From positions 1 through 56,015 of the IMG/VR virus record IMGVR_UViG_3300046006_001695: 56,015 nt of DNA. One strand, written 5' to 3'. This DNA is from a virus. The notes beneath the pieces are model-generated. The model was not told the DNA's origin, did not search any database, and saw nothing but the letters and a program-made list of their open reading frames with translations. Position numbers and translations under genes: made by a program. Of this stretch, positions 1,930 to 40,395 are shown one piece after another (within the stretch, counting starts at the first letter, position 1; each line of letters opens with the position of its first letter).

Positions 1930-4449
1930 TTAAAAGGAGAAGAAATCGTTCGCATTCTGGTTAATTTCCGTTGGGATATTTCCCCATTTTAACGCCGTAT
2001 AAAAGTCATCCAATTTATTCCGTAATTCATTTTCAAATAACGCATCCGTATCAATATATTCGGTAACCATTTCCACGATTTGTGGTGGGTCTTGGTATCC
2101 CTTAATTGCCAATGTGTCAATGTGCAACGGATTGTCCTTCAGATATACATACTTAATCTTTGCACCATCTGCGATGGGTTCATATCGTGTTTGAATATCG
2201 AAGTGCGTCAATAACCTGTTATACACAATTGCTGCCTTAATATGTGCAGGAGTTCCTTTCTTGAATCGGTTGATTCCTCCACCGCCCTCCCCTGCGGCAA
2301 ACTGACTGATATTATTTGCCGATGTATTTCGTGCAACTTCTAAATAATGACGAGTCTTCAATGAAGTTTTTAACGCAAGAATCTTCTCGTCTAATTCGTT
2401 CTTATCTACTCTGCCCAAAATATCTGTCAACATCTGCGTCATGAATTCCCGAAATGCTTTGGGGAACGATGACCTTACGACATCTAATCCCTTCACGACA
2501 AGTTTACTGACGTTCTGACGGGTTTCCAAATCATACACCTTGTCCAATGCATATCGCTTCTTAGCGACCCAGAATCCCGTCTTAGCGACACTTTCTCCCT
2601 TAATATGGAACTTATGACTATCGCAATTGAACATACGTTTTGCCATAGAATCATAGAACTTATTCAGTCCACTTTCCATGTCATACGCAATGTCAATGGT
2701 TGCCGCAAGAGCATCGGTGGAACCCTCAGTAAACAATGGCTTTGCTGGAAAGTACACTGAGTCCGTATCGACATACACACAATGGTCTTTCTTCTCACCA
2801 GTTGCCTTTTCGTATTTCAAATTGATAAACTTGGCTGTCGTCTTAATTACATCTTGCCCCGTCAATGTTACTGCAGCAGCATTGTCTACGTCATAGAAAC
2901 GGAACACGGGTAATCCCAGCACACCATACAATGAGTTCAAGAAAATCTTTTGAATATGTTGCCGCTGATCGTAATAAGCAGCCTGCACCTTATCACCGTC
3001 GTTAGTATACTTCTTCATCAGATTCTTATATTCCACACGTTTAGCAAACCATTCTTCTAATACCTCTGGGATAATTCCCTTTGATATTGTACTATACAAT
3101 ACACCATTAGACGCCATCGTGAGATTATTCTCTTGTATAAACTGGACGAACGCATCATACTCTAATTCTACTGTCGTATCATTACCCATTTCTTGAACCA
3201 CATACGCAACAATTTCTTTACGGAAATGTTGCTCCATGTCAAAGTTCAATACTTTGGCTACCTTGGTTTCTGGACTGATATTGAGGCTCATAATAATACT
3301 GGGATACAGCGATTGCAAATCGAGCGAATATACCCAATCATACAATCCCGGCACAGGTTCTTGTACATATGCTCCCGCAAATCCTTCTCTATCACCCATT
3401 GCATCCATCTGTTCTCTACCATCCTTGGGTTTATCGGTCACGATAATTCCCTTGCGATGCAGATAGGTAACAATAGTACCTTCAAGGAAACGGGAACTCA
3501 TGCCATAGTCTTCGTATGGCACGTGTCCAATGTGACAGATACCTCGTACAAGGTCGATGAGATTCAGTTTCTTATCTAGGTCAACGATAATGCGCACGTC
3601 CTGTAAGTTGTACTCAATAAATTTATCCAAGTCATCTCGGAACAAATCATCAAGAGAACCTTCGTAGTCTACCTTGCCCATACCCACTTCCAATCGTCCA
3701 ATCGTATCAAGACGATAATTGGGTTGTTGGGTATACGTGAACTTCTTATACAGGTCTAAATAATCCAATGACGATACTCCAGCAATTTTATATCGTTCCA
3801 TGCGTTCGGAATATTTCACGCGGCCAATAGGACTCAATCTGTTTGCCGTGCCTTTTCCACACACTTGACGAATGCGATTGTATAGATAGGGTACGTCGAA
3901 TCCGTTACTATTCCATCCACTGATAATGGTGGGGCGGATTTGTTCATATGAATTAATAAACTTATGAAGCAGATCTACTTCATCCATACAGAAATGTACG
4001 GATGCTTCTTCAGATTCACGATCTGTATACAATCCACGCTTGTCCAGTACAAAGACTTCATATTTCTTTACGAGAGGATCGTATAATGCAATAGAAGTAA
4101 TTTCATTATTTGGGTTCTTGGTATTCGGAATACCATTTTCCATTGACACCTCAATGTCAAAGAATAAGGTGATATTCCCTTCGGACGAGGTATCTTCGTT
4201 CAGATATAAATCTGTAAGAACGCGAGTTTCTTTTGGAAGGTCACTCTCAAATACATTGGGGGTACCACGGATGAAGCGCCTCGTTTTACTGAGGCGTTCT
4301 CCTGTCATACTGATATACTTTCCTTTGGGGTCACGGACGTATGCGTAATTAAAGTCAGACAATGGTAGAGTAATAAGTCCCTGCGCATCATCCCAAATAT
4401 ATACTACTTGTTCGTCTGATGTTGAGTCGATAAAAATATTTTGATACAT
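1930..4449 (-). CDS. Family B DNA polymerase, T4 gp43-like
   Basis: This 839-aa replicative polymerase has a complete set of motifs. The 3'-5' exonuclease has ExoI FFDIE (D98, E100), ExoII NSNGFD (about 180-185) and ExoIII YNLQDV (280-285). The polymerase has motif A SLDLQSLYPS (375-384), motif B KIFLNSLYG (501-509) and motif C YVDTDSVYF (559-567), then a KKRY motif. It copies the phage genome with proofreading. The start ATG 4449 has AAGGGG 5-6 bases upstream and lies under its own promoter at 4480-4508. It is slightly shorter than T4 gp43. A second, family A-like polymerase lies at 15480-16769. Confidence 0.96.
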   Translation of the reverse strand: MYQNIFIDSTSDEQVVYIWDDAQGLITLPLSDFNYAYVRDPKGKYISMTGERLSKTRRFIRGTPNVFESDLPKETRVLTDLYLNEDTSSEGNITLFFDIEVSMENGIPNTKNPNNEITSIALYDPLVKKYEVFVLDKRGLYTDRESEEASVHFCMDEVDLLHKFINSYEQIRPTIISGWNSNGFDVPYLYNRIRQVCGKGTANRLSPIGRVKYSERMERYKIAGVSSLDYLDLYKKFTYTQQPNYRLDTIGRLEVGMGKVDYEGSLDDLFRDDLDKFIEYNLQDVRIIVDLDKKLNLIDLVRGICHIGHVPYEDYGMSSRFLEGTIVTYLHRKGIIVTDKPKDGREQMDAMGDREGFAGAYVQEPVPGLYDWVYSLDLQSLYPSIIMSLNISPETKVAKVLNFDMEQHFRKEIVAYVVQEMGNDTTVELEYDAFVQFIQENNLTMASNGVLYSTISKGIIPEVLEEWFAKRVEYKNLMKKYTNDGDKVQAAYYDQRQHIQKIFLNSLYGVLGLPVFRFYDVDNAAAVTLTGQDVIKTTAKFINLKYEKATGEKKDHCVYVDTDSVYFPAKPLFTEGSTDALAATIDIAYDMESGLNKFYDSMAKRMFNCDSHKFHIKGESVAKTGFWVAKKRYALDKVYDLETRQNVSKLVVKGLDVVRSSFPKAFREFMTQMLTDILGRVDKNELDEKILALKTSLKTRHYLEVARNTSANNISQFAAGEGGGGINRFKKGTPAHIKAAIVYNRLLTHFDIQTRYEPIADGAKIKYVYLKDNPLHIDTLAIKGYQDPPQIVEMVTEYIDTDALFENELRNKLDDFYTALKWGNIPTEINQNANDFFSF

Positions 4450-9284: not shown

Positions 9285-10670
9285 TCACTCTTCCGAAAAA
9301 TCATCGTGGAGTTCAGATAATTTCTTTGCAAGAGTCTTTTTTAACATACCTTCTCCCGCCTGCATTTGCTTCTTCAACAGAATGCCCTTGGAAGAATTTT
9401 CATCATAAATTTCAATCTTTCCAAGACCAGTGTTCATATATACGGGCAACGTAACACCATCAACACCGAATCGATTCTTCATAACATGGCAACGGCCAGT
9501 ATGATTTGCCTTATCTTCCAGTTTACGCGACAGGGAAATCACCAAGTCAGCGGTCATAATTTTCTGGTATGATTCGGCAATCTTATCCGCTTGAATAACT
9601 TCATCTTGAATACTACTGCGTTGTGTTTGTGAGGCGGTCCAGCAGGGAATGGCCATCTCACCAGACATACCACGAATTTCTTCATAGATTGCCCCCAGTT
9701 CTTGGTGTCGAGCGTCTATACGATCAGTAGAACGCATAAGATCGGCATAATCAATTAGTATTAAATCGGGTTTGAGTTTATTACTAATCAAATGATCGAG
9801 ATGTGCCCGAATCGTATGAACGGTAATGGATCGTGCAGGATAATATTTAATGATAATATCACCCGTAACCCCATCGACTGCATCTCGCACCAACTGAGGA
9901 TGTTGTGGAACATTACCCGGCTCAATACCCGTAAAGATCGTATCATATCGAAGTCCAACATAATTCTCGTTCAACTCCAAGGTATAATATACCACCCGTT
10001 TTCCTGCCTTTGCAGCGTTTGCTCCAATCGTGGCAAGTGCCCAACTCTTACCAATACCAGATGGTGCAGCAATCACACCAAGTTCACCAGCACCCAATCC
10101 ACCACCGATTAATTGATCAATGGAATCCCAACCAGTGGGAACCACAATACGAGAAATACCCGATAGTCGAATACCAATGTCGTCTCTCCAATTATGTCCA
10201 ATGTTACGAGGCTGTCCTGCTTTCATTGCCCCATCAATCAAATTCTTAATTTCACCATATTGTCCCATTTGCAATAAATCAACGGAACGGATAATAGCAG
10301 ACTTAATTGCTTGGTTTTTTGCAAAGTCTAGAAAACTATCACGGATATATTGCAAGTCTTCATCGTTCTTTCTTTGAAACGCCGACCGTAATTGGTCTTT
10401 AATGGCAATCTTCAACACATCATCATTAATCACATCCAGCTTCACTTTAAATACTTCTAGCGTGGGTAACGCCTTATAATCAGCAAAGTAATCAATCGTC
10501 GTATCAACAATCCATTGCCCCGCGTTTGATTCAAAGAATTTAGGATTTAATACATCCAACGATTGTTGTAAAAATTCGGTAGACGACAACAAACTTGCTA
10601 ATACTTTTGCCTGAAACGTTGGTCCGTATTTTGCAAGATTGTCTACTGTCGTATCATACTGTGGTGTCAT
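9285..10670 (-). CDS. Replicative DNA helicase, DnaB / T4 gp41-like
   Basis: The 461-aa RecA-fold helicase has an N-terminal helical DnaB-type domain (about 1-150). It then has GWDSIDQLIGGGLGAGELG, Walker A APSGIGKS (202-209), the H1a-type region YYTLELNE (228-235), Walker B LILIDYAD (303-310) and TASQTQR (345-351). It unwinds DNA 5'-3' at the fork ahead of polymerase B. The start overlaps the end of the exonuclease gene by 17 bases. No separate primase gene is seen in this window. Confidence 0.93.
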   Translation of the reverse strand: MTPQYDTTVDNLAKYGPTFQAKVLASLLSSTEFLQQSLDVLNPKFFESNAGQWIVDTTIDYFADYKALPTLEVFKVKLDVINDDVLKIAIKDQLRSAFQRKNDEDLQYIRDSFLDFAKNQAIKSAIIRSVDLLQMGQYGEIKNLIDGAMKAGQPRNIGHNWRDDIGIRLSGISRIVVPTGWDSIDQLIGGGLGAGELGVIAAPSGIGKSWALATIGANAAKAGKRVVYYTLELNENYVGLRYDTIFTGIEPGNVPQHPQLVRDAVDGVTGDIIIKYYPARSITVHTIRAHLDHLISNKLKPDLILIDYADLMRSTDRIDARHQELGAIYEEIRGMSGEMAIPCWTASQTQRSSIQDEVIQADKIAESYQKIMTADLVISLSRKLEDKANHTGRCHVMKNRFGVDGVTLPVYMNTGLGKIEIYDENSSKGILLKKQMQAGEGMLKKTLAKKLSELHDDFSEE

Positions 10671-11706
10671 TGTTAAACCTGCTAAGAGGAATGAAATTCT
10701 GCGATAACCAACTGTCGTAGTTGGGGAATGCTTGTAGTAATCTAGACTTCATCATCAACTTTGTCAAGTCTACCTTCCGCAATGAAGTTTGTGTCGTCTG
10801 AAATCTATTGACTACCTTCATTTTAGCATCAATCGACATGATACTTTCGTGGAGATTCATTAATGTAATATTTCGTTCAACTATATCTTCATTATTTAAA
10901 ATGTTCTCAATCATCTTGGGAACCTTTTTTATATTTGCATATTTATTGCGAATCATGTCTACCGAAATTTCTGCGGTTGGGTCAGCAATTTCTGGAAGAT
11001 ACTTTTTCAGATTAGTTTCTCCAACACCCTTTACTCCATCAATATTATCACTCTTATCCCCATCTAACGCACGGAAGAAATGAAAGTGTTTTGGATGAAT
11101 GCCATAATCTTCCAAGATTACTTGGTCACTAAATGTTTTCTTTTTGATGGGATTATAGATTTTGATATTTTCTGCGGCAAGTTGAAAGAAATCCTTATCA
11201 GTAGAATAAATAATACTATCTCCGCCGTCTGCCGTAACCAATTGTGATAAATATGCAATCACATCATCTGCTTCTACGTTGTCCAACGCAAAAATAGTAA
11301 CGGGCAAACATTCCAGCATTTCAACCAATGATACCAACTGCCACTTCATATTTTCTTTTTCTTGTTCATCCGTCGTTAAATCATAACTCCGGTTCAACCG
11401 AACCGGAGGTTTACGATTTGCCTTATACTGCGGATAAATCTTTCTACGACTTTGGCTGCCACCCTTTCCATCAAAAACAATGATGGTCCGGGTGGGCTTA
11501 AACGTGCGAATAGCAAGACCTAAACTCTTAAAGAATCCAATCATGCCCCCAATGTGATTTCCATCGTCATCCATTGAAGGCACGGCAGAATACGAACGTA
11601 TGAAAAGGTTCATCGCGTCAACCAACAATACCCGACTGTTATATGTCATACCTTGCGGGTCTTCTTCAAACTTCATATTGTGAAAAATATCTTGCAGATT
11701 AGCCAT
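10654..11706 (-). CDS. 5'-3' exonuclease / flap endonuclease (T4 RNase H-like)
   Basis: The 350-aa protein has the FEN/PIN nuclease acidic residues: LLVDAMNLFIRSY near 28-40, TIIVFDGKGG near 75, NVEADDVIAYL near 145, STDKDFFQL near 168, and DGDKSDNIDGVKGVG near 215-229, which is a helix-hairpin-helix metal region. It would remove RNA primers and flaps. I chose ATG 11706 (MANLQDIF) rather than the longer open frame, because it overlaps the upstream stop (ATGGCTAA). It is coupled to the helicase gene downstream. Confidence 0.9.
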   Translation of the reverse strand: MANLQDIFHNMKFEEDPQGMTYNSRVLLVDAMNLFIRSYSAVPSMDDDGNHIGGMIGFFKSLGLAIRTFKPTRTIIVFDGKGGSQSRRKIYPQYKANRKPPVRLNRSYDLTTDEQEKENMKWQLVSLVEMLECLPVTIFALDNVEADDVIAYLSQLVTADGGDSIIYSTDKDFFQLAAENIKIYNPIKKKTFSDQVILEDYGIHPKHFHFFRALDGDKSDNIDGVKGVGETNLKKYLPEIADPTAEISVDMIRNKYANIKKVPKMIENILNNEDIVERNITLMNLHESIMSIDAKMKVVNRFQTTQTSLRKVDLTKLMMKSRLLQAFPNYDSWLSQNFIPLSRFNNDTTV

Positions 11707-12028
11707 GTAGGATTTCTTTATTGATAATGTTTGATTGAACACCCATAGCATCTGTTTGGGTGGTGGTCCATGTGCCCATCAAGTTCGGTGGATTAATTGT
11801 GTAGGTGTGCGCAGGAGAGGTACGAATGGTTACTGATGCCTCCCCGCCCCGCTTTAAGGGTCCGACTGGTTTCAACTGAACCTGTGGCTCTGCTTGCATT
11901 AACAACCGACGAAGTTCTAATTCGAAATCGTCACGGTGCTGGGCGACTCCTGGCCAGGAGTACTTGTCGTCCCACGACTTATCATACGCAGACAATACAA
12001 GCTGCACAATATCTTCTGGATTATTCAT
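11699..12028 (-). CDS. Hypothetical protein between recA and exonuclease
   Basis: A 109-aa frame of unknown family. It has an acidic helical N-terminus (NNPEDIVQLVLSAYDKSW, then a helix with ELELRRLLMQAEPQ) and a Thr- and Pro-rich C-terminal part with SVTIRTSPAHTYTINPPNL. The start overlaps the recA stop and the stop overlaps the exonuclease start, so it is a true operon member. Position suggests a recombination or replication accessory, for example a mediator or loader, but nothing in the sequence proves it. Confidence 0.7.
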   Translation of the reverse strand: MNNPEDIVQLVLSAYDKSWDDKYSWPGVAQHRDDFELELRRLLMQAEPQVQLKPVGPLKRGGEASVTIRTSPAHTYTINPPNLMGTWTTTQTDAMGVQSNIINKEILHG

Positions 12029-13163
12029 CTTCAGTTGCCGCCATAATACTCACATCTTCAGGATCAAATTCACTCTGATACTTCATAATCAGTGAATCAC
12101 AAATCTCACTGTAGAGTGCTTCCTTCCGAATAGGGTCTGCATCTAAGAACGCTTGAAAGTCCTTCGATTGAAACTTCGTTTCTTCTCCCGTAGTAGGATC
12201 GACATAGGCATACCATGCCCCTGCCTGCTTGACCATTTTGTTTTCCTTCAATACCTTCAGCCAACTACCCAAATCGTCAATACCACGATTAAAGTAAATT
12301 TCAAATTCTGCCGTGCGATGTGGCGGTCCAAGACGATTCTTGACAACATTTGCCTTCACCTTCACACCGATCACATCACCACTGGAATTACTAATCTTAC
12401 CGAGCAACGACAATCGAAGACGAGTCGATGCGTGGAATGCAATTGCCTTACCACCCGAAGTCGTCCACGGGTCAGAGAACGCCATTGCATTCATCTTCTG
12501 ACGGAGCTGATTCGTGAAGACGAGTGCAATCCGTTCACGGCCCAACAATCCCGTAATCTTACGCATTGCCTTACTGATGATGATAGCCTTGTCGGTCGCA
12601 TATCCATCCTTCCCGAAGTCTGCTTCCATTTCCTTCTTGGTGGATGCGGCGGCAACGGAGTCTACTACGATGGTGACAAGCTTATCCCGTTTCTTGGGGT
12701 CTTTGCGCACTTCTTCGATAATAACCGTGATTGCGTCAAAGATTTCTTCAACCGTCTGCAACTGGACATATACCAACTTATTCATGTCGATACCGACTGC
12801 CTTAAAGAACTCCGCATTGACTGCTGTCTCAGTGTCAATCAGAACCCCTACCCCACCCCTTCTCTGCGTGTTTGCAATCATCTGTGCCCCTATCAGAGAC
12901 TTCCCAGACCCCTCTAATCCAGTGAGTTCGGTGATACGCCCAACCGCAATTCCTCCATTCGGACGATTACTAATTGCCACATCCAACATGGTTGCGCCCG
13001 TTGAAATGAAGTCGGTAAAATCCGTTGGCGTTGATTCTCGTCCATCAAGGAAGAATGCAACTTGGTCACTATCCTTATTCATTTTATTCAAAGATACTGC
13101 AATAAGTTGTGCTAACTCATCACGATCTGGTTCTTGAATAACTTTCTTATCTGGTTTTGCCAT
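12021..13163 (-). CDS. RecA/UvsX-like recombinase
   Basis: The 380-aa strand-exchange ATPase has Walker A GLEGSGKS (82-89), a catalytic Glu after VLIDTETAVN, and Walker B TIVVDSVAAASTKKEME near 165-180. FTNQLRQKM resembles the RecA signal loop, and TTSGGKAIAFHASTRL follows near 240. It would coat ssDNA and drive recombination-dependent replication. ATG 13163 has AGGA about 7 bases upstream. Its own promoter with an overlapping inverted repeat lies at 13196-13235, shared in design with the ssb gene just upstream. Confidence 0.94.
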   Translation of the reverse strand: MAKPDKKVIQEPDRDELAQLIAVSLNKMNKDSDQVAFFLDGRESTPTDFTDFISTGATMLDVAISNRPNGGIAVGRITELTGLEGSGKSLIGAQMIANTQRRGGVGVLIDTETAVNAEFFKAVGIDMNKLVYVQLQTVEEIFDAITVIIEEVRKDPKKRDKLVTIVVDSVAAASTKKEMEADFGKDGYATDKAIIISKAMRKITGLLGRERIALVFTNQLRQKMNAMAFSDPWTTSGGKAIAFHASTRLRLSLLGKISNSSGDVIGVKVKANVVKNRLGPPHRTAEFEIYFNRGIDDLGSWLKVLKENKMVKQAGAWYAYVDPTTGEETKFQSKDFQAFLDADPIRKEALYSEICDSLIMKYQSEFDPEDVSIMAATEDE

Positions 13164-13241: not shown

Positions 13242-14036
13242 TTAGTTAAATACTTCGTCAAACTCGTCAATCATATCCTTGACTGACGTTGACTTAAGTT
13301 CTACTGACTTAGCTGCCGTGGGTGAGGTGGGCTTAGTTACAACTTCTTCCTTCACAGGAGCAGCAGTGGGAGGAGCCTTGACTGCATCTGGGTCAAGGTA
13401 TCGTTCGAGCGCAACTTTCAGTTCTTCGTATGAGGGTTCCTTGAAAATTGAACGAATGTCCGGCTGGTCCGTAAGAAACTTCTGAATCTTCTCTGCAGAA
13501 TCCGCAAGTGGCGTCTGATTCGGCTTAGGACGAACCATCGTCTTGGCAAAGTTCGTATCACTCTTTTCCTGCGGGATATATTCTACCACAATGTCACGGC
13601 CGTTCTGTACATCGGTGATATCGCCGTAATCGGGGTCAGAGATAATAGACAACAGTTCGGTGTATACAATCTTGCCAAACGACATGAAGCGAACGCCCTT
13701 ATCTTCTTCACCACGAACAATGATAGGAACGAATGTACGCAACTTTGGACGGAACGGACGTGCCTGCTGCCAATCATCCTTAGAACCGCCGGCCTGTAGT
13801 GCGTCTGCAAATTCTACGATAGGATCACGGTTACCGTTTGAGGTAGGAGACAGATGCGTCTTATTGCCGAGATAATGAAAATATAGTTCAACGAACGGAT
13901 TTTCCTTGTTATCCTTCCACGGAACAATACGAATAACCGTCTTACCTTCCGTGGGCTTCCATAGTGCGTCACTACGGTCGTTCTGACGAGTGAACTGATT
14001 GAGCTTAGACTTGAGTGCTGAGATGTTAATTCCCAT
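13242..14036 (-). CDS. Single-stranded DNA-binding protein, T4 gp32-like
   Basis: A 264-aa protein with a basic N-terminus (LKSKLNQFTRQNDR), a core with VIRIVPWKDNKENPFVELYFHYLG near 33-56 (split as IRIVPW and VELYFHYLG), FRPKLRTFVPIIVRG near 100, and a low-complexity Pro/Thr/Lys linker leading to the acidic tail MIDEFDEVFN. This layout matches gp32-type SSBs: N-terminal cooperativity region, OB-fold core, acidic tail for partner binding. It would organise ssDNA for helicase and recombinase. ATG 14036 follows AGAGGT about 9 bases upstream. Confidence 0.88.
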   Translation of the reverse strand: MGINISALKSKLNQFTRQNDRSDALWKPTEGKTVIRIVPWKDNKENPFVELYFHYLGNKTHLSPTSNGNRDPIVEFADALQAGGSKDDWQQARPFRPKLRTFVPIIVRGEEDKGVRFMSFGKIVYTELLSIISDPDYGDITDVQNGRDIVVEYIPQEKSDTNFAKTMVRPKPNQTPLADSAEKIQKFLTDQPDIRSIFKEPSYEELKVALERYLDPDAVKAPPTAAPVKEEVVTKPTSPTAAKSVELKSTSVKDMIDEFDEVFN

Positions 14037-14133: not shown

Positions 14134-14541
14134 TTATAATTCTATGATATCGGATAATTTAGTATTAACTACTTTAAGTTTACCGTATGCGGTAACCAAT
14201 ACAGAATTTTTTAATTCATCCCAATTAATTCGAAATGATTTATCTAATACGCCATTGTTTTTCAATTCAATCAATTTATTAATTGCATTTATTGTATAGA
14301 TTGTATTCGTTTGCTTTTTTCTATGTACCGAAATTGTTGACGCCGGTGGTAATGTATTTGAATGTGTTTTCGTAATATTATATGTTAGTACTAATTGATT
14401 GGCATCTTCTATATTTTCTAGTAGATATAATTTATTGAATACTAACACATACGAATTTTTTATAATATCAATAGTGGCGTCTAACTCATCTACGGATGTG
14501 AACGTGCATAATAATTGCGTTTCAGTATTCATATATAACAT
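14134..14541 (-). CDS. Hypothetical phage protein (135 aa)
   Basis: Unrecognised protein with an alpha/beta look: a FTSVDELDATIDIIKNSY helix near 14-31, a VFNKLYLLENIEDANQLVLTY stretch in the middle and a Lys-rich segment near 76 (VHRKKQTNTIYTINAINKL). No cysteines beyond one, no membrane segment. It has its own strong promoter at 14571-14599 and lies directly upstream of ssb. Two in-frame ATGs (14541 and 14532) are possible; neither has a strong ribosome site. A replication-linked regulatory role is only a guess from place. Confidence 0.65.
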   Translation of the reverse strand: MLYMNTETQLLCTFTSVDELDATIDIIKNSYVLVFNKLYLLENIEDANQLVLTYNITKTHSNTLPPASTISVHRKKQTNTIYTINAINKLIELKNNGVLDKSFRINWDELKNSVLVTAYGKLKVVNTKLSDIIEL

Positions 14542-14622: not shown

Positions 14623-15483
14623 TTACTCTGAAATTGCTCTTCCTTTCAGCATCTCCCAATCTTTCTCTGGACGGTCGATTGTAATGTTTCTTGTCCATGC
14701 CGCATCTAATACCGGAGTGGGTACATTAAGTTCTCGTGCTACATGACGAATTGCCGAAATATCTTTGGGGAAACACGTGCCACCAAATCCATTGTGACCA
14801 TCCGGCCCAGGAACTTGCCAGTGCGATTTACCCATACGAGAATCTGACACTATGGCATCTTTCATAGTATTCCAATTAACATTTAATCTAGAAGCAAGTG
14901 CTTCCATTTCATTCGCAAATGATACTTTGGTAGCAAGAAATGTATTACACAAATACTTATAAAATTCAGCATCAGTTGCACCAACCGTTGCAGAATATTT
15001 AACAGAATCTACAGTACTTTTAATTTCAGTTAGTACATCGAATGCAATGTCTCTCCATACCCATCCACAATATCCTAATAACATAACATCTTGATTTAAA
15101 TAATCATTTTTATAATTTGCTTCCGTTAAAAACTCTGGATTAAACATTACGACATGTTTATTATTCATATCTTGTAATTTCTCCGTTGTCTTAGGCGGTA
15201 CTGTAGATTTTATGACTATTAGTTTCGGGGTCTTACTTTTACCAATATCATTTACCACTGACTCAACAATCGACGTATCACATTCACCGGAAGATTTCAT
15301 CGGCGTTGGTACGGCAACATATATCAAATCAACCAACTCCACCAATTCTTGTAACGATTTGCATGATGGGGTTGTTTCTGGATTAACATCAAATGTATGT
15401 ACCTTGCGATTTTTTAAAGTATATGCGTTTAATACAGCACCCCCCACATATCCCAATCCAACGATTCCTATCTTAAAACTCAT
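14623..15483 (-). CDS. UDP-glucose/nucleotide-sugar 6-dehydrogenase-like, short form
   Basis: The 286-aa NAD-dependent enzyme has a Rossmann N-terminus GIVGLGYVGGAV (6-17), VAVPTP (57-62), KSTVPP (92-97), FNPEFLTE (114-121), and the central helix with NTFLATKVSFANE (180-192). The catalytic-Cys loop FGGTCFPKD has Cys at about 237. This family oxidises UDP-glucose or GDP-mannose twice to the uronic acid. It ends near residue 286, so the usual C-terminal nucleotide-binding domain (another 100 or more residues) is missing. Its substrate range or activity may therefore differ. It overlaps the polymerase A-like gene by ATGA. Confidence 0.85.
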   Translation of the reverse strand: MSFKIGIVGLGYVGGAVLNAYTLKNRKVHTFDVNPETTPSCKSLQELVELVDLIYVAVPTPMKSSGECDTSIVESVVNDIGKSKTPKLIVIKSTVPPKTTEKLQDMNNKHVVMFNPEFLTEANYKNDYLNQDVMLLGYCGWVWRDIAFDVLTEIKSTVDSVKYSATVGATDAEFYKYLCNTFLATKVSFANEMEALASRLNVNWNTMKDAIVSDSRMGKSHWQVPGPDGHNGFGGTCFPKDISAIRHVARELNVPTPVLDAAWTRNITIDRPEKDWEMLKGRAISE

Positions 15484-16769
15484 AACCGTATCTCCTTAAT
15501 GTTACCGTATGTATTTCCTGAATATATACGCACAGGGAATTTTTTATTTTCTTCTAAAATCTCTTGTATCTTCTGTAGGATATTAATATCCATAGTTTGC
15601 ATATCCAACAGTATACTATCATATGTATACAACACCAAATGATTTGTAGTATTTTTCATGAGTTCAATAATACGAGTTAATTTTGGCAATGTTCGTACCA
15701 TTTCTAATGATTGTACATAATAATTGAACAGTTTACTTGCATTTGGTGACGGTACATTAACAGTAATACCGTTAGGTAACTTGATGAAGTTCACCCGTTC
15801 ATATTGCTTTCTATGTTCGTGAATCTTTTCAAATAATTCAAAATTATAGGTTTCGATGCTCGTGCCATACATAACTTCAAAAGTGCGCCGTTTACTTTCC
15901 GCATACATATCTTCTGTAATATCTAATGTATTGAAGTATACCTTCGCAAGTTCGGTATGAATTGATTGTTCACTGGGTAAGTCTACTCCCAGTTCATTTG
16001 CCATCAATCGTAGATGATATGCCTCAAAATCCATTTGTACCAGTGACCCAGATGGATATCTACTAATAAAACTATCACGGGAACCGTCTGACTTATTTAA
16101 TGCGGCAAAGTTTATACCACCAAATCTATTACTTGGACGACCTGTAGCAGTATATGGATTATATTCGGTATATACCATGTTATCTTTGAACGCACGTTTT
16201 GTATCAGACGAAAAATGTTCTGATAATAATGTCCTGTCTACGCACAGTCCCGCAGATTCAATATCTTTCAACGTAGACAACAATTTGTACATATACTCAT
16301 ATTGTGGCGGATCATATAATGGAATGAATTTACGTAGCATCGTATTATACTGTTCGCCAATTGCACCCCACGTTGTTAATGGAATGATTCTATTTACGTG
16401 ACGCATATTGTGAAACATGTTATGTGTATCACGAATGTACGAGGTAAATGTATCTTCTAATGTTGGGACATTCATTTGATGAATATACGCAATTGCTGAT
16501 ACGTCTACATCAAGGCACGGTGTAGTCAGTACTTTACTGTTTGCCGTAAAACACAGTGCATTTCCAACCGGCATTTCAAAGTGCGGAGCATCGTCATGTG
16601 AAATGGACACGGTAAAACTTTCACCGTTCATGAACGTTATACATACACATAACAATTCATTTTCCATAACATGATAATATAAATCACGAAAGATCGGCGT
16701 GCAAATATGCATCTCCCGATCCATCCGTGACTTCAACTCGTTATATTGTTCGTAACTATTAATAACCAT
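15480..16769 (-). CDS. Divergent family A DNA polymerase-like protein
   Basis: The 429-aa protein has a readable polymerase I palm and fingers. The T-GR segment YTATGRPSNRF is at 206-216, motif A VQMDFEAYHLRLMANE at 244-259 (Asp 247), motif B YAESKRRTFEVMYG at 289-302 (Lys 293, Phe 297 and Tyr 301 align with the family), and motif C VLYTYDSILLDM at 379-390 (Asp 384). The usual His and Glu of motif C are Tyr and Ser. The N-terminal 200 residues may be a degenerate 3'-5' exonuclease domain without its acidic residues. It is not the main replicase, since polymerase B is intact. It may act in repair or be a non-canonical polymerase. Confidence 0.7.
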   Translation of the reverse strand: MVINSYEQYNELKSRMDREMHICTPIFRDLYYHVMENELLCVCITFMNGESFTVSISHDDAPHFEMPVGNALCFTANSKVLTTPCLDVDVSAIAYIHQMNVPTLEDTFTSYIRDTHNMFHNMRHVNRIIPLTTWGAIGEQYNTMLRKFIPLYDPPQYEYMYKLLSTLKDIESAGLCVDRTLLSEHFSSDTKRAFKDNMVYTEYNPYTATGRPSNRFGGINFAALNKSDGSRDSFISRYPSGSLVQMDFEAYHLRLMANELGVDLPSEQSIHTELAKVYFNTLDITEDMYAESKRRTFEVMYGTSIETYNFELFEKIHEHRKQYERVNFIKLPNGITVNVPSPNASKLFNYYVQSLEMVRTLPKLTRIIELMKNTTNHLVLYTYDSILLDMQTMDINILQKIQEILEENKKFPVRIYSGNTYGNIKEIRL

Positions 16770-17177
16770 TTATACCTCTTCGGCGAACCAATACTCCAGA
16801 TAACTTGTAATATACTTCAACAGTCCTCCAAAAGTCAAGTCCGCCTCGGATACTACTACACGATTCGTATCTTCTACCCCATAAATTGTTACACCATTTA
16901 AAAGTTTTATATTTTGTTTTTTGCCCACAATTTTCCATTTTATTTCTGTCGTAACAAACCGTGGGTTTTCTTTCAGTTCGTAATATTGACTATCATTTAC
17001 CTCTACAATAAAGTCTTTATCGGTGACCTGCCGTACAAAATATCGTATAATAAATCCATTTTTAGCATCAGTCTGCGTAACAATCGGCAATGACTGCGTA
17101 GGCATTTCATCCAAAATACGGGTTAATCGTTGTTCGTCAGACTTATAAAGTTTTTGTATTAAATCGATGTCAATCAT
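16770..17177 (-). CDS. Hypothetical protein after the baseplate hub gene
   Basis: A 135-aa protein with an N-terminal helix (IDLIQKLYKSDEQRLTRIL), beta-rich middle (GFIIRYFVRQVTDKDFIVEV), YYELKENPRFVTTEIKW, and an aromatic C-terminus LLKYITSYLEYWFAEEV. No family recognised. It abuts the hub gene (3 bases apart) and the polymerase A-like gene (next base), so it lies at the junction of the tail and replication blocks. A tail-completion or assembly role is possible. Confidence 0.65.
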   Translation of the reverse strand: MIDIDLIQKLYKSDEQRLTRILDEMPTQSLPIVTQTDAKNGFIIRYFVRQVTDKDFIVEVNDSQYYELKENPRFVTTEIKWKIVGKKQNIKLLNGVTIYGVEDTNRVVVSEADLTFGGLLKYITSYLEYWFAEEV

Positions 17178-17179
17178 TA

Positions 17180-20100
17180 TTATGTACCTACTGGGGCAGT
17201 GATATTTGATGCTCGGGTAGTCTTAGCGGTTTTAAATTTTGCCTCCATTGCGGCTTTCCAATTAGTTCCCAAATAATTAAATGTTGAATGTACTTTAGTC
17301 GTCCATCCCTCTCTACCAATGGTATCTTCAATACCCATAATTTGAAATGCTCCAAATGCTTTATAAAAGGTAGGAATACGATCAATCCAAAATAATTCAC
17401 CGATGCGCAACCCTGCTATACCAGGCATCTCGATATCACCTTTTATTGATAGTGCTCCTGGAGATGCGCCAAAAGCATTAGCAAACTGACCATTAGCAGA
17501 ATCTGTAATTTCTGAAACCATCATATCTGGAAATATTTCAATATATCTAAATATTCTATTCATACCCGGGAAATCTCTGATTGCCTTTTCGGCTGCCTTG
17601 GTTGCTTTATCTTTTTCTGCTATTACTACGGCAGTTTGAGTCATTACAGTTTTTGCTGTTTCACAATTTGCACACCGCTTCTTTCCTTCTTTAATTTGAG
17701 AGTCTCTAAAGATGGTACCATCAAAACCAATCGTTCCAATTTCAATATATGCCTCGTCACTACATACTTTAGTACTGGATGTCGATGATTTGCGTTGATT
17801 AAGTGCTGCATAATATTCCGTGCTGTCTAATCTAGTATCTCCTGCAATACCTCTATTCAACGAGTCATAATTTCCTTCACCCTTTGCAATAAACTCTTTT
17901 AACGACTGTAAACTTTTATTTTGTCTGGCAATACGTAATGCTTCTTGATATTTTGCAGAACTTGCGGTGGATCTATTTCCTGCTATTCCGTAATAATAGG
18001 ATTGCCCCGCTTCAAGTACTGCTCCTGGATCAGATTTTGATGCTGCTCCGGCGGGTCTAGTAACTCTATATGGAACTGGGATTGATGCAAATTCTTTTGC
18101 TAATTCTAATTGCGCATCTTCTATTGTTATAGATGTATCTCCATTAACAAATCTTCCCACCTTCGGTCGTTTACCAACAATTAACCAATCACCCAATTTT
18201 TCTTGCGTAGCACTATCAAATACAGTATCCGTTGGAATTTTCTGTGCCGCAATCCACGCTTTAAACGTAACAGGAATTGCTTGATATTTACCGACTGCAA
18301 GAACTGTACCAGTAGGTTTTTGTACAGATAATACTTCTGATATCGTTAATTGCGATAATTTCTTATTCGTTGGTTGTGTAGTAACGGGCGGCGCTTTTGG
18401 TGGTGGACAAGTCTGACATTTTTTACATACTTCAGATTCCAATGTTTTCTTTGCTTTTTCCTGTTCTTTTTTTAATTCATCTGCATTTTTATTGTTCAAG
18501 TTTGCAGACGGGTCAACTGCACCCGGCTTTTGTCCAACACCACCTGTGTTTGCGGTGGTTTGCACATTACCTTTTCCACATACTGCACTTGCCCTTAATT
18601 GTGCTTCGCGGGCAGTTTTTGGAAGTACCGTAATATCTGGACCTTGGATGTTGGCATCGAAATTTCCGTCCTTGTCTACACCTGCGAGGGATGTAATAGC
18701 AAACATTTTGCGCAGGGTGTCATTCGGATCAGATATTTTTGGTGGTTTATTCGGACCAAGGCCAGTTTTAGCAGCAGCAGCTGCTTCTTCTGCCAGTTCG
18801 TCTTTAGTCTTACCGGCATTTGCAATTTCCTGCATGTCTTCGGGTTGTACCAATCCCAACGTGGCAATTTGCGTAAATAATCGTTTCGGCAACGATAAAT
18901 CAATAGAACACTCGGTTAACTCCGATCCTACCAACTTGCCCGTTGCAGCATCGGTGCGAACGTATTTATTAAATGTATGCACTTTATCTATAAACTCTGA
19001 CACCGCTCGGTCAGAACTTTCTCTAAAGTTGGCATCTATTACCATGTAATTATATGGATGTTCCGAACCTTTAATTGGTTCTGCTACATCTATAGCCAAC
19101 TTCCAATAGTTTAATGTTGCGTGATTCATACGTTCCAGTAAACTCACAATACCGCGAAGAATGGTAGTACTACCTACCATACATTCTGCAACTGCCTTAT
19201 GATTTAACCACACACCGGAACTTAAAAAACCACGATCTTCTGCTGCTTTATAGGCGGTTGTAGACTCTTCAAACAATCCACGGGGATCATTTTTGTTTGA
19301 TTGATCATAAAACTTTTTTGTTTCATCATTCGTATCAAAAAACTTTACATCAGATGTTGGTATATTATACTGTGGATTTGCCTGCGCTAGTTGTACCGCT
19401 TTTTCATTAACTATAATCAATGTAGATGGGTCAATAGATCGTAAAAACTTATTCATACCAACATATGATTCCATTGGATCGTCTATATACTTTAAACTTT
19501 CTACATTTGTATTTTTTCGACCGTCGCCGGTTGCATATGGTAATAATAATCCTATTTTTTTCAGTTCCTCATCGCTCATCATCTTACTAAAAATATATTT
19601 CAGTCCCTTATAAGTTTCATCGGTACTATTCAGTACTATATTAACAAAGTATCTCCATGTTATGAAATATGCATCTTCTGAGTCCGCAAAACTATTTTGA
19701 CTTATGACGGGACTTTGTTCAGTTGCGGTCGGATCTCCACCTTTTTTATTTCCACCTTCAAGAAATTGTACATGTTTCTGCCACGGACCAGCGTTATTTC
19801 GAGTGTCGTCTAATAAAGTTTTAAAATTTATACCACCGGTAACGGTTTCTGTGAAATATGACGATACACTGGTGGTATCAGATGCACAAAAGTATTTTGT
19901 ACTGGAGTCTTTTGATGGAATTACTGTATTTTGCGTAGAGTATGCAAACGAATCTTCTGACGGTCCTACAATTTTTACTGTACAATTAAATGATCCATCG
20001 GAATTGGATTTGGTACTAAAGTTTGCCACACGACCAAACATCCACATGTACTGCCCCTGTGATGTATATGCATAATCATCTAAAATTTCTTTTAGTCCTA

Positions 20101-20755
20101 ATTGATTAGTTGCCAATTTATTTAAAATTTCCATAAGTTTGGTACGATCATGCCATGGAAATAAATTTGCGGATATGTCTGGCAATTCTCCCAAACTTGG
20201 TTTTAATTCTGGGGCAAATTGCTGTCCCCATTCTAAGATCATACCAACACCAGGAATTAAAAACGTTCTGTGCAAATTTTCTAATTGCACCAGTGATGGT
20301 ACGGAGATTTCCATCGATGCCTGTGCCAGTACACCGTTCTTAGCTCTACCAACGGTTACTTTAGTAATACCAGGCGGTGGGATTCTGACAAAGTTCGTTG
20401 TTTTATATAACATACCCTGTGTATCAAATATCCCAGATATTATTTGATCGTTTGGGTCTGTTGCATACACTCGTTTGGAGTTTCCTTCTGCCGTATACGT
20501 ATACCCAATCAACGGCATATCTCCCTGTTGTGATGCGTACATATCTTCATATCGTACATCTTCATCTATAGCATGTAATCCTAATGTAAACCCAATATTA
20601 CCTTTACCAAGTTCTGGTAATTCAATAGTGGTGGTGGCTCTTATGAACGGCATAGAAACTTGAATCGTATTATCCAGTTCAGACCGTGCATCCAATAATT
20701 TACTTATGTCTTCATTTATTACTTTGTAGTCAAAAGACCCTTGATCGTGTGCCAT
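17180..20755 (-). CDS. Large baseplate hub protein with embedded muralytic domain
   Basis: A 1191-aa virion protein. Residues 1-250 are beta-rich with LEWGQQF near 174. Residues 650-800 are a low-complexity linker with SEVCKKCQTC. Residues 803-895 (LTISEV, GKYQAIP at 822-828, FDSATQEKLGDWLI, AQLELAKEFASIPVP) and 957-975 (AKGEGNYDSLNRGIAGDT) match the two halves of phage tail muramidase or transglycosylase domains, but in swapped order. A second CxxC (CANC) is near 1028. The C-terminus (GLRIGELFWIDRIPTFYKAF, then HSTFNYLG) resembles hub-type tail proteins. It probably both builds the tail tip and opens peptidoglycan at entry. The start at 20755 is 7 bases after the LysM gene. Confidence 0.75.
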   Translation of the reverse strand: MAHDQGSFDYKVINEDISKLLDARSELDNTIQVSMPFIRATTTIELPELGKGNIGFTLGLHAIDEDVRYEDMYASQQGDMPLIGYTYTAEGNSKRVYATDPNDQIISGIFDTQGMLYKTTNFVRIPPPGITKVTVGRAKNGVLAQASMEISVPSLVQLENLHRTFLIPGVGMILEWGQQFAPELKPSLGELPDISANLFPWHDRTKLMEILNKLATNQLGLKEILDDYAYTSQGQYMWMFGRVANFSTKSNSDGSFNCTVKIVGPSEDSFAYSTQNTVIPSKDSSTKYFCASDTTSVSSYFTETVTGGINFKTLLDDTRNNAGPWQKHVQFLEGGNKKGGDPTATEQSPVISQNSFADSEDAYFITWRYFVNIVLNSTDETYKGLKYIFSKMMSDEELKKIGLLLPYATGDGRKNTNVESLKYIDDPMESYVGMNKFLRSIDPSTLIIVNEKAVQLAQANPQYNIPTSDVKFFDTNDETKKFYDQSNKNDPRGLFEESTTAYKAAEDRGFLSSGVWLNHKAVAECMVGSTTILRGIVSLLERMNHATLNYWKLAIDVAEPIKGSEHPYNYMVIDANFRESSDRAVSEFIDKVHTFNKYVRTDAATGKLVGSELTECSIDLSLPKRLFTQIATLGLVQPEDMQEIANAGKTKDELAEEAAAAAKTGLGPNKPPKISDPNDTLRKMFAITSLAGVDKDGNFDANIQGPDITVLPKTAREAQLRASAVCGKGNVQTTANTGGVGQKPGAVDPSANLNNKNADELKKEQEKAKKTLESEVCKKCQTCPPPKAPPVTTQPTNKKLSQLTISEVLSVQKPTGTVLAVGKYQAIPVTFKAWIAAQKIPTDTVFDSATQEKLGDWLIVGKRPKVGRFVNGDTSITIEDAQLELAKEFASIPVPYRVTRPAGAASKSDPGAVLEAGQSYYYGIAGNRSTASSAKYQEALRIARQNKSLQSLKEFIAKGEGNYDSLNRGIAGDTRLDSTEYYAALNQRKSSTSSTKVCSDEAYIEIGTIGFDGTIFRDSQIKEGKKRCANCETAKTVMTQTAVVIAEKDKATKAAEKAIRDFPGMNRIFRYIEIFPDMMVSEITDSANGQFANAFGASPGALSIKGDIEMPGIAGLRIGELFWIDRIPTFYKAFGAFQIMGIEDTIGREGWTTKVHSTFNYLGTNWKAAMEAKFKTAKTTRASNITAPVGT

Positions 20756-37888: not shown

Positions 37889-39109
37889 TTATTCAGGTGC
37901 ACCGCATACACTGCCGCCAACACATACTAATGAACAACACTCTTCATTAAAACTACATGATTCTCCAGTACCTAAGCACGACACTGGCGATGGTGTTGGT
38001 TCCGGCACCACCGGCGATGGCGTTACCGGCGACGGTGTTGGTGATACTGGTGATGGGGTTGGTACTGAGAAACATGTTCCATTTAATTCAAAGTCACACG
38101 GACATTCTGCTGGACATGTACCTAATGAGTTTCCTGAACCGTCTGTACATGCACTACCACATCCAAGCGCCGATGTTGGTGACGGCGTTACTGGCGACGG
38201 TGTTACTGGCGACGGTGTTACTGGCGACGGTGTTACTGGTGACGGTGTTACTGGTGACGGCGTTACTGGCGACGGTGTTGGTGACGGTGTTACTGGTGAC
38301 GGTGTTACTGGTGACGGCGTTACTGGCGACGGTGTTGGTGACGGCGTTACTGGCGACGGTGTTGGTGACGGCGTTACTGGCGACGGTGTTGGTGACGGCG
38401 TTACTGGCGACGGTGTTGGTGACGGAGTTGGTGCCACGCAAGCAGAACAATTAGTTGTCTCGCACGATCCAATACCACACGCAGTTGTTGTATAGTAGTT
38501 GCGTAAGAAGACTCCTCCCCCAATTGATTCGCATGAAATTGTCGTTCCTACTACACATGCTACTGGTGACGGTGTTACTGGTGACGGTGTTACTGGTGAC
38601 GGTGTTACTGGCGACGGTGTTACTGGCGACGGTGTTACTGGCGACGGTGTTACTGGTGACGGCGTTGGTGATGGTGTTGGCGTTACTGGCGATGGCGTTG
38701 GTGATGGTGTTGGCGCTACTGGCGATGGTGTTGGTGAAGGTGTTGGTGCCGGTGTTACTGGTGATGGTGTTACTGGTGATGGTGTTACTGGTGATGGTGT
38801 TGGTGAAGGCGTTGGTGAAGGCGTTGGCGCCGGTGTTGGTGACGGCGTTGGTGCTACAGGTGACGGTGTTGGCGCAGGTGCATAACACAAAAAATAATTG
38901 CGTGGTTTTGCTGCAATTAAAGTATAATTTACTTCGGTATATCCACTTGGACATGATGCCGACGGCGTTCCCGATGCACCTGTAGTCCCATATGACGCAG
39001 TTAATGCGTATGCAGGAATGTATGACGGATTATCGATGGTATTTACACGACTTGCCGTGACCGCATAAGAACTGGTTGACGGAATGCCAAATGGAAAAAA
39101 TATACTCAT
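37889..39109 (-). CDS. (PTPSPV)n fibre protein with Cys-rich modules and knottin-like end
   Basis: A 406-aa protein. Residues 1-50 share FPFGIP and SSYAVTAS with the two genes upstream, a likely fibre attachment segment. Long Pro/Thr/Ser/Val repeats (78-184, 225-312, 348-376) alternate with Cys modules: C53-C75, C185-C224, C317-C347, and a C-terminal C378-x6-C-x5-CC-x3-C-x5-C402. That last spacing is the inhibitor-cystine-knot pattern. Extended Pro/Thr stalks with disulfide heads look like a mucin-like adhesin. The ATG overlaps the upstream stop (TAATG). It is encoded beside glycosyltransferases, so the stalk may be glycosylated. Confidence 0.8.
38166..38436 (-). repeat. 15-bp tandem repeat encoding PSPVT
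   Basis: Repeats of GGTGTTACTGGCGAC-type units, with single-base variants, encode the second Pro-rich stalk. Repeat number is likely to vary between relatives. Confidence 0.9.
38563..38880 (-). repeat. 15-bp and 18-bp tandem repeats encoding PSPVT / PTPSPV
   Basis: Same unit as 38166-38436 but with more variants, encoding the first Pro-rich stalk. Confidence 0.9.
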
Positions 39110-39297
39110 TATAGGTACCCAAACCCCTGCCGTGTGACGGTGATTGCCGGCGGACCACCCGGACCCACATAGGCAATTGAAAATTCTGCAAATGATGCGG
39201 TGGCGGGTACTGGACCCAATAAAGTCGTTGCATAACTTGCATTTACTGCATACGAACTACTAAAGGGTATACCCAGCGGGAAAAAACGAATCGTCAT
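39109..39297 (-). CDS. Small fibre-associated protein with SSYAV motif
   Basis: A 62-aa protein beginning [28 protein letters not shown], split as FPLGIPF and [10 protein letters not shown], then a [15 protein letters not shown] end. Its N-terminus matches those of the proteins at 37889 and 39307, so the three are paralogous or share an attachment segment. A stand-alone copy this short may be a fibre joint. Start ATG 39297 has GTAGAG upstream; the stop forms TAATG with the next gene. Confidence 0.6.
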
Positions 39298-39306
39298 ATA
39301 AATACT

Positions 39307-39546
39307 CTACACATTACAGAATTCAACATATCCTGACCCCGAACCAGCCTGTAGCGCTACATATTCTGCAAATGATATTAAACATACACTTTTTCCCCGT
39401 GATCCTGACTGTGGAAACAATACCGTTCCCGCAGTAGATGCGGATATGACCGTTTTAATAAAACTTGCCGACACTGCACATGATGCAGTTACTGCATAGG
39501 ATGCGGTATATAATGACCCCGACCCAAATGGATATACCGACAACAT
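39307..39546 (-). CDS. Small fibre-associated protein with ASYAVTAS motif
   Basis: A 79-aa protein: VYPFGSGSLYTASYAVTASCAVSASF at the N-terminus (YPFG and ASYAVTAS shared with the two genes downstream), then SGSRGKSVCLISFAEYVALQAGSGSGY. Three cysteines. The ASYAxxAS phrase recurs in the long fibres at 49023-52525. It probably joins or caps a fibre; no enzyme motif is seen. Confidence 0.6.
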   Translation of the reverse strand: MLSVYPFGSGSLYTASYAVTASCAVSASFIKTVISASTAGTVLFPQSGSRGKSVCLISFAEYVALQAGSGSGYVEFCNV

Positions 39547-40395
39547 TTAATTTTCTACCGAAACTACATGAATTGATGCCGTCATATCTTGTGCTCCACC
39601 AGTAGTTGCCATGCTTTGAAATATATAGTATAGTTCATTGTTTCCTTGTGGGACATTCAATGCATTTAGTACGGTTCCCATATTTTCTAAGTTTGCCCCA
39701 ATAATTTTTGGAATAAAATAGGTAGTTTCACTGCCCGTAATGATTGCGTCTACTAACAACGAGTTCATTTGCGATTCCGTTACAAACGACCTGTTTTTTT
39801 CGGTAGCATCATTAATAGAAGTCAGTGTACTATACAATCGTACTCGGGCTGCAGTTGTCGTTGCATTTAATGACGCACTCACTAATAAGTAGGTCTTTGG
39901 AATTTGAACATCCGAAATTGACCCACTAATTATTTGCCCGACACTTAAACTTCCGGTGATTTTTGGCAACGATACTCTATTGCTCGTACTTATCGTTGCA
40001 TCTTCTAATAAATATCGATTGAATGTTAAATTTGGATATTGTCCAGACGCCGTGGTGTCTACACGATAATAAGTTAGTTTTGTATTGGCAGGAGTTACCA
40101 CGCCATACATCACGGGGTCAATCGTGTATGTGCCGGCGCTCATCGTGAAATCTCCAATTAATGCTACTGAACTTGAGATGTTTGTATTACCGAATGTTCT
40201 ACTTTTTTCACCTAAATTATTAAGACTAGCTGACGTATCATATAATCGCAATCTACATGGAAAATTTGTTTGAATACTAAGTAACGCATACGCAGACCCC
40301 AGTTCTACCGAACCCGACCCGGTTTCATCGGTCTGGGTAGTAATTAAGCCTCGTGAAAGATTCGCCCCTAATCTAATATATTCTTTTAATCCCAT
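39547..40395 (-). CDS. Virion protein with internal duplication
   Basis: A 282-aa beta-rich protein beginning MGLKEYIRLGANLSRG. Two halves repeat a theme: CRLRLYDTSASLNNLGEKSRTFG near 47-69 (as CRLRLYDTSAS and GEKSRTFG) and ARVRLYSTLTSINDATEKNRSF near 183-204. This suggests a duplicated beta-sandwich of a tail fibre or baseplate attachment. Its stop adjoins the next gene start. Function beyond structural is unknown. Confidence 0.65.
   Translation of the reverse strand: MGLKEYIRLGANLSRGLITTQTDETGSGSVELGSAYALLSIQTNFPCRLRLYDTSASLNNLGEKSRTFGNTNISSSVALIGDFTMSAGTYTIDPVMYGVVTPANTKLTYYRVDTTASGQYPNLTFNRYLLEDATISTSNRVSLPKITGSLSVGQIISGSISDVQIPKTYLLVSASLNATTTAARVRLYSTLTSINDATEKNRSFVTESQMNSLLVDAIITGSETTYFIPKIIGANLENMGTVLNALNVPQGNNELYYIFQSMATTGGAQDMTASIHVVSVEN

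Follow-up and report, generated by a model that had tools for sequence, protein, structure and literature searches.

A divPolA1 protein alongside an intact family B replicase: a divergent family A DNA polymerase heading a conserved phage replication block

Why would a phage that encodes an intact family B DNA polymerase carry a second, short protein related to family A polymerases (PolA)? The question is raised by a virus record of 56,015 bases (hereafter the window), a 56 kb fragment of a virus that infects bacteria. Its nearest relative lies on a contig of 163,934 bases, and the phages from which the protein family in question is known have genomes of 155-190 kb (PMC11348598). The gene under study occupies positions 15480-16769 and encodes 429 aa, as judged from the open reading frame, PolA profile matches and a structural model. 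The coordinates and length given in the first-pass annotation were correct, but the strand had to be changed to minus: the start codon is the ATG at 16769-16767 on that strand, and the plus strand at 15480-16769 has stops throughout.

The gene is part of a co-directional set, all on the minus strand. It follows a gene for a large protein (17180-20755) and one for a 135-aa protein (16770-17177), and its stop codon shares bases with the start codon (ATG) of the next gene, which is UDP-glucose-dehydrogenase-like (14623-15483) and separates it from a gene for a second 135-aa protein (14134-14541). The set continues with a gp32-type single-stranded-DNA-binding protein (SSB; 13242-14036; phrog_1192, E 2e-17), a UvsX-type recombinase (12021-13163; phrog_97, E 3e-69), a Pol I-type 5'-3' exonuclease encoded as a separate protein (10654-11751; PF02739, E 3e-33; phrog_107) and a DnaB/gp41-type replicative helicase (9285-10670; phrog_19, E 2e-72). 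It ends with a ribonucleotide reductase, a dUTPase, the intact family B replicase (PolB; 1930-4449; phrog_262, E 2e-187; PF00136, PF03104) and an ATP-dependent DNA ligase (493-1635; phrog_114, E 3e-64). Elsewhere in the window, at 38001-40000, the GC skew flips sign (+0.13, the rest being at about -0.1) and the G+C content is raised, at 0.476.

The relationship to family A emerges mainly from profiles. The single protein matches Pfam DNA_pol_A with E 1e-5 and 25.1 bits, under the curated cut-off of 34.3 bits, which several relatives pass once their pieces are summed. Neither PHROGs nor Pfam holds an adequate model for it, and a PDB search with the single sequence gave no match, Klenow being found with the family profile only. 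A profile of 11 family sequences retrieved Klenow structures with E 2e-7, and when a profile of 84 relatives was compared with one of five ordinary phage PolAs, the probability was 99.35% and the E-value 6.6e-21 across 257 columns. The first-pass annotation had made its proposal depend on a significant PolA profile match, and these matches are significant. An AlphaFold model built on 77 sequences (mean pLDDT 93.4, pTM 0.90) shows the PolA fold over the whole length of the protein, with the expected elements at the expected places: a strand at residues 242-248 carrying D247, the O-helix at 286-300, a long Q-helix at 344-371, and a motif C hairpin of strands 377-381 and 385-390 with D384 at its turn. 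All PDB matches listed for the model are DNA polymerases. The product of 16769-15480 is thus confirmed as a divergent family A polymerase, and the same record does encode an intact PolB, as had been proposed.

A protein of this kind has been described before. Yutin et al. (2024; Virol J 21:200, PMC11348598) named divPolA1 from 14 phages, Flavobacterium phage immuto included; in our full-text literature search the name occurred only in that paper and its preprint. They described a conserved palm, a truncated thumb, an inactivated exonuclease, a further polymerase (family A, B or C) in the same genome and replication genes downstream, and suggested, as a prediction, that the protein is active and involved in replication (PMC11348598). 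Judged by its sequence, the window protein is a member of this family, which was thus already named in 2024. It is homologous to the defining short PolA of immuto (tblastn, 29.7% identity over 86%, E 7e-41), with which it shares the invariant columns of a joint alignment. It keeps the catalytic residues of the palm, its exonuclease acids are replaced and its thumb is truncated; a regular polymerase is encoded alongside, and SSB, UvsX, 5' nuclease and helicase follow downstream in that order. The window protein falls in a separate clade with the sugar-dehydrogenase gene inserted behind it, and nothing in the comparison excludes membership. The divPolA2 proteins of the same study are also second PolA-like proteins beside a PolB, but are set apart by their description, having another N-terminal domain, a variable neighborhood and a barbavirus lineage (PMC11348598).

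The family is far larger than its literature suggests. Whereas the single sequence found 22 close relatives, a pattern scan of IMG/VR yielded at least 583 confirmed ones. Six contigs from metagenome-assembled genomes (MAGs) carry relatives as well, and these are possibly phage contigs that ended up in bacterial bins; no relatives were found on plasmids. We aligned 84 distinct full-length sequences of 408-467 aa, with identities down to about 25%. Invariant in 84/84 are H58, E171, T209, R211, P212, N214, N220, D247 and H252 in the first part of the protein and K293, G302, Y350, Q353, E356, L380, Y381, Y383 and D384 in the second, while F297 (82/84), Y301 (83/84) and N349 (83/84) are near-invariant. 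With dN/dS at about 0.13 (0.10-0.17 for nearly all pairs, one at 0.22), divPolA1 is a strongly constrained family under purifying selection.

These residues fall into the motifs of a polymerase. T209-G-R-P-S-N214 (16128-16145) is the counterpart of the PolA TGRLSS motif. Motif A (residues 242-255; 16005-16046) contains the catalytic D247 and, at the steric-gate position of E. coli E710, H252. Motif B, the O-helix (286-302; 15864-15914), carries K293, F297, Y301 and G302, with Y289 at the position of E. coli R754. The start of the Q-helix (344-356; 15702-15740) comprises N349, Y350 and Q353, of which N349 and Q353 are the counterparts of E. coli N845 and Q849, followed by E356, and the motif C hairpin (377-390; 15600-15641) reads Y381-T-Y383-D384-S385, with D389 further on. 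The protein thereby shares with E. coli Klenow the palm and fingers fold, the aspartates of motifs A and C, the O-helix Lys, Phe and Tyr-Gly and the Q-helix Asn and Gln, and the motif residues assigned beforehand (D247, K293, F297, Y301, G302, D384) are all in place.

Since exactly the metal ligands and the nucleotide-binding residues are kept, loss of catalysis is unlikely, and we regard the protein as very probably an active template-dependent polymerase on the strength of these conserved positions. The first-pass annotation had left room for a non-catalytic relative, such as a scaffold or regulator that merely retains the fold. The absent exonuclease acids, the changed His and Glu of motif C and the mostly lost fingers Arg would fit that reading. 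We nevertheless hold it to be highly improbable, as the metal-binding Asp pair and the Lys and Gly of motif B do not vary in 84 sequences reaching down to 25% identity, and Ser also stands at the motif C Glu position in four out of five ordinary phage PolAs.

Those ordinary phage PolAs, from Pelagibacter phage HTVC033P, Roseobacter phage CRP-212 and SPO1-type Bacillus and Staphylococcus phages, are the closest sequence matches outside the family and served as controls for its departures from Pol I. They are full-length proteins of 678-1070 aa, each the single polymerase of its phage according to the annotation. Relative to E. coli Pol I, the window protein has His for E710, Tyr for R754, Tyr for H881 and Ser for E883. 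The replacement of Glu by Ser and of His by Tyr in motif C had been noticed correctly, but Ser is no sign of inactivation: the controls have H-D-S in 4/5 cases, which makes the Ser unremarkable and leaves the Tyr as the specific change. Throughout divPolA1, motif C reads Y-D-S/A in place of H-D-E (Tyr for His in 84/84), His stands at the steric-gate Glu position in 84/84, and 5/84 members keep the fingers Arg, which the other 79 have lost. The controls, in contrast, keep the steric-gate Glu in 5/5 and the fingers Arg in all four in which motif B could be matched. The real oddities are the steric-gate His, the loss of the fingers Arg and the motif C Tyr, and with these three changes catalysis may differ from that of Pol I.

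Two further departures concern whole domains. Residues 1-100 (16470-16769) can be aligned with the proofreading domain and appear to be a vestigial 3'-5' exonuclease-like region, a reading based on the 84-sequence alignment, a global profile alignment to full PolAs, analogy and PMC11348598. Its acids are gone, as had been noted: no conserved D-x-E occurs in the first strand, position 25 is Pro in 64/84, and position 81 (exonuclease II) has no acid, whereas H58 is invariant and D89 near-invariant. The published structural comparison agrees that the divPolA1 exonuclease is inactivated (PMC11348598), and Klenow fragments without an exonuclease domain can retain polymerase activity (PMC6457538). 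The thumb is reduced to five profile positions versus 91 in Klenow in the 11-sequence profile alignment. Profile positions 193 and 199 flank positions 238 and 330 of the Klenow chain, and therefore about 91 thumb residues are absent; the spacer between G174 and T209 measures 18-38 residues in 84/84. The whole protein has 429 aa versus about 605 aa in Klenow. Together with the vestigial proofreading domain, the missing thumb suggests that synthesis would be short, distributive and non-proofreading, with low processivity following from the thumb.

The steric gate bears on a possible role in primer or RNA synthesis, for which a family A enzyme would have turned primase or RNA polymerase and would tolerate ribonucleotides through H252. 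In Pol I, E710 excludes ribonucleotides (PMC7200780, PMC13228545), and its replacement in 84/84 sequences is what this idea builds on, together with the lack of a detectable primase in 4/10 long relatives. A His is still bulky, however, the listed structural matches comprise no RNA polymerase or primase, and a DnaG/gp61-type primase was found in 6/10 long relatives, the records of the other four being possibly incomplete. The primer-synthesizing role offered at the outset is weakened by these findings, and we consider it very unlikely. A more elaborate version, to which we attach slight credence, is a split polymerase with a rebuilt nucleotide pocket (His gate, Arg lost), a thumb contributed in trans, perhaps from the downstream 135-aa protein, and an altered sugar selectivity that could allow, for instance, mixed RNA/DNA synthesis.

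The altered pocket (H252, Y289) and the lack of proofreading could also be those of an enzyme for translesion synthesis or error-prone repair, which would step in where bases are damaged, as Pol nu and Pol theta do. Foldseek places Pol nu, Pol theta, apicoplast Pol and Klenow at the top of its list for the model, with E down to 1e-16 (Pol nu). This ranking is not specific, because Klenow is no worse a fit when TM-scores are compared: normalized by query length, E. coli Pol I (8oo6) reaches 0.74, the highest value, and Pol nu 0.70. The likeness to Pol theta and Pol nu is one of overall fold. Universal retention in the lineage beside SSB and helicase also suggests routine use. Repair or translesion was rightly listed among the options, and we rate translesion as unlikely.

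What the second polymerase works beside is clear from the replicases. The window PolB has its polymerase domain (PF00136, E 7e-47), its exonuclease domain (E 1e-22) and the motifs DIE, SLYPS, NSLYG and YVDTDS. It lies about 11 kb downstream of divPolA1 in the same direction, hence 'beside' it in the sense of sharing the replication region, not of being next door. A full replicase is present in all 16 examined records of at least 115 kb, and the 13 IMG/VR records of that size all have a long PolB frame of 831-863 aa. Phage immuto encodes a 777-aa PolA elsewhere in its genome, Microcystis phage Mel-JY01 a PolB followed by clamp-loader genes, and the 484 kb phage LR756508.1 two PolB-like frames (1022 and 625 aa) plus a PolC-like frame (575 aa), its replicases being possibly split or multiple. 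The nearest long relative (164 kb) encodes homologues of the clamp-loader proteins gp44 and gp62 and a clamp candidate. divPolA1 thus accompanies replicases of different families, as expected for an accessory enzyme. In the annotation of Mel-JY01, the 5'-3' exonuclease is named 'DNA polymerase I' and divPolA1 'hypothetical protein'.

The gene had been placed at the edge of a tail-gene block, which is only part of the picture, since divPolA1 opens a conserved block of SSB, UvsX, 5' nuclease and helicase genes. We scored the genes behind divPolA1 in the 56 loci that extend at least 6 kb downstream. The 135-aa protein (the 14134-14541 family) is encoded in all 56, SSB and UvsX in 50 each, the 5' nuclease in 49, the helicase in 46, and the order is constant: divPolA1, 135-aa protein, SSB, UvsX, 5' nuclease, helicase. 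The dehydrogenase insertion is confined to the clade of the window (9/12 tips); clade members L003, L004 and L005 lack the gene, with a 773-base unexplained gap at this place in L005. Upstream, the large protein of the 17180-20755 family is found in 72/73 loci and the small 16770 family in 71/73. Both products in the window (1191 and 135 aa, minus strand) have no Pfam matches, and they are probably tail or baseplate parts.

The adjoining UvsX and SSB genes (50/56 loci) make it conceivable that the polymerase extends 3' ends in UvsX-made joint molecules and so starts recombination-dependent replication. The 5' nuclease (49/56) and helicase (46/56) are linked nearly as tightly, though, and T4 uses gp43 at that step. 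We regard this role as quite unlikely; it differs in emphasis only from the gap filling that we favor below. The neighborhood cannot single out which partner matters, as the gene block is too well conserved.

The same caution applies to the downstream 135-aa protein (14134-14541). Of 50,697 phage records, the six that contain its family are the six that contain the polymerase, and loci fetched by this family contained the polymerase in 24/24 cases with 8.5 kb upstream. It may be a specific polymerase partner, but the co-occurrence may only mark the lineage, because two genes upstream of the polymerase vary hardly more in their presence (16770 in 71 of 73 loci, 17180 in 72). The protein carries a HRKKxTNTLYTINALN motif and an invariant W107, and has no Pfam, PHROG or PDB-fold matches. 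The idea of a RegA-like repressor was dropped because the model of the protein (pLDDT 89.7) matched no PDB structure with an E-value of 0.001 or lower.

Taken together, the evidence leads us to lean, with modest confidence, towards an active accessory polymerase whose main role would be gap filling or primer replacement with the SSB, 5' nuclease and ligase of the phage. As a family A palm-fingers enzyme with a shortened thumb and without proofreading, it would extend existing 3' ends by short stretches of DNA, using D247 and D384 for two-metal catalysis, before dissociating. Gaps left by the removal of lagging-strand RNA primers, or by recombination or damage, would be filled with SSB, UvsX, the separate Pol I-type 5' nuclease and the ligase of the same phage. 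The family B polymerase and clamp loader would copy the genome, while divPolA1 would do the job of bacterial Pol I. The parallel is direct: what Pol I unites in a single chain, 5' nuclease and polymerase, is split in the phage between two proteins of one gene block, and a ligase is encoded further on. A separate gap-filler is not obligatory, as shown by T4, which has gp43 and a 5' nuclease but no PolA.

New here for divPolA1 are its scale, the invariant residues, the sugar-gate His, the lost fingers Arg, the Ser control, the purifying selection and the companion 135-aa family. A protein known from 14 phages thus becomes a large, strongly constrained environmental family, and D247, H252, Y289, Y383 and D384, together with the companion gene, bring the role of a second polymerase in T4-like phages within reach of testing. 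Should divPolA1 indeed fill gaps, such phages would own a two-part Pol I; if the altered sugar gate matters, divPolA1 would be a PolA with an unusual choice of substrate.
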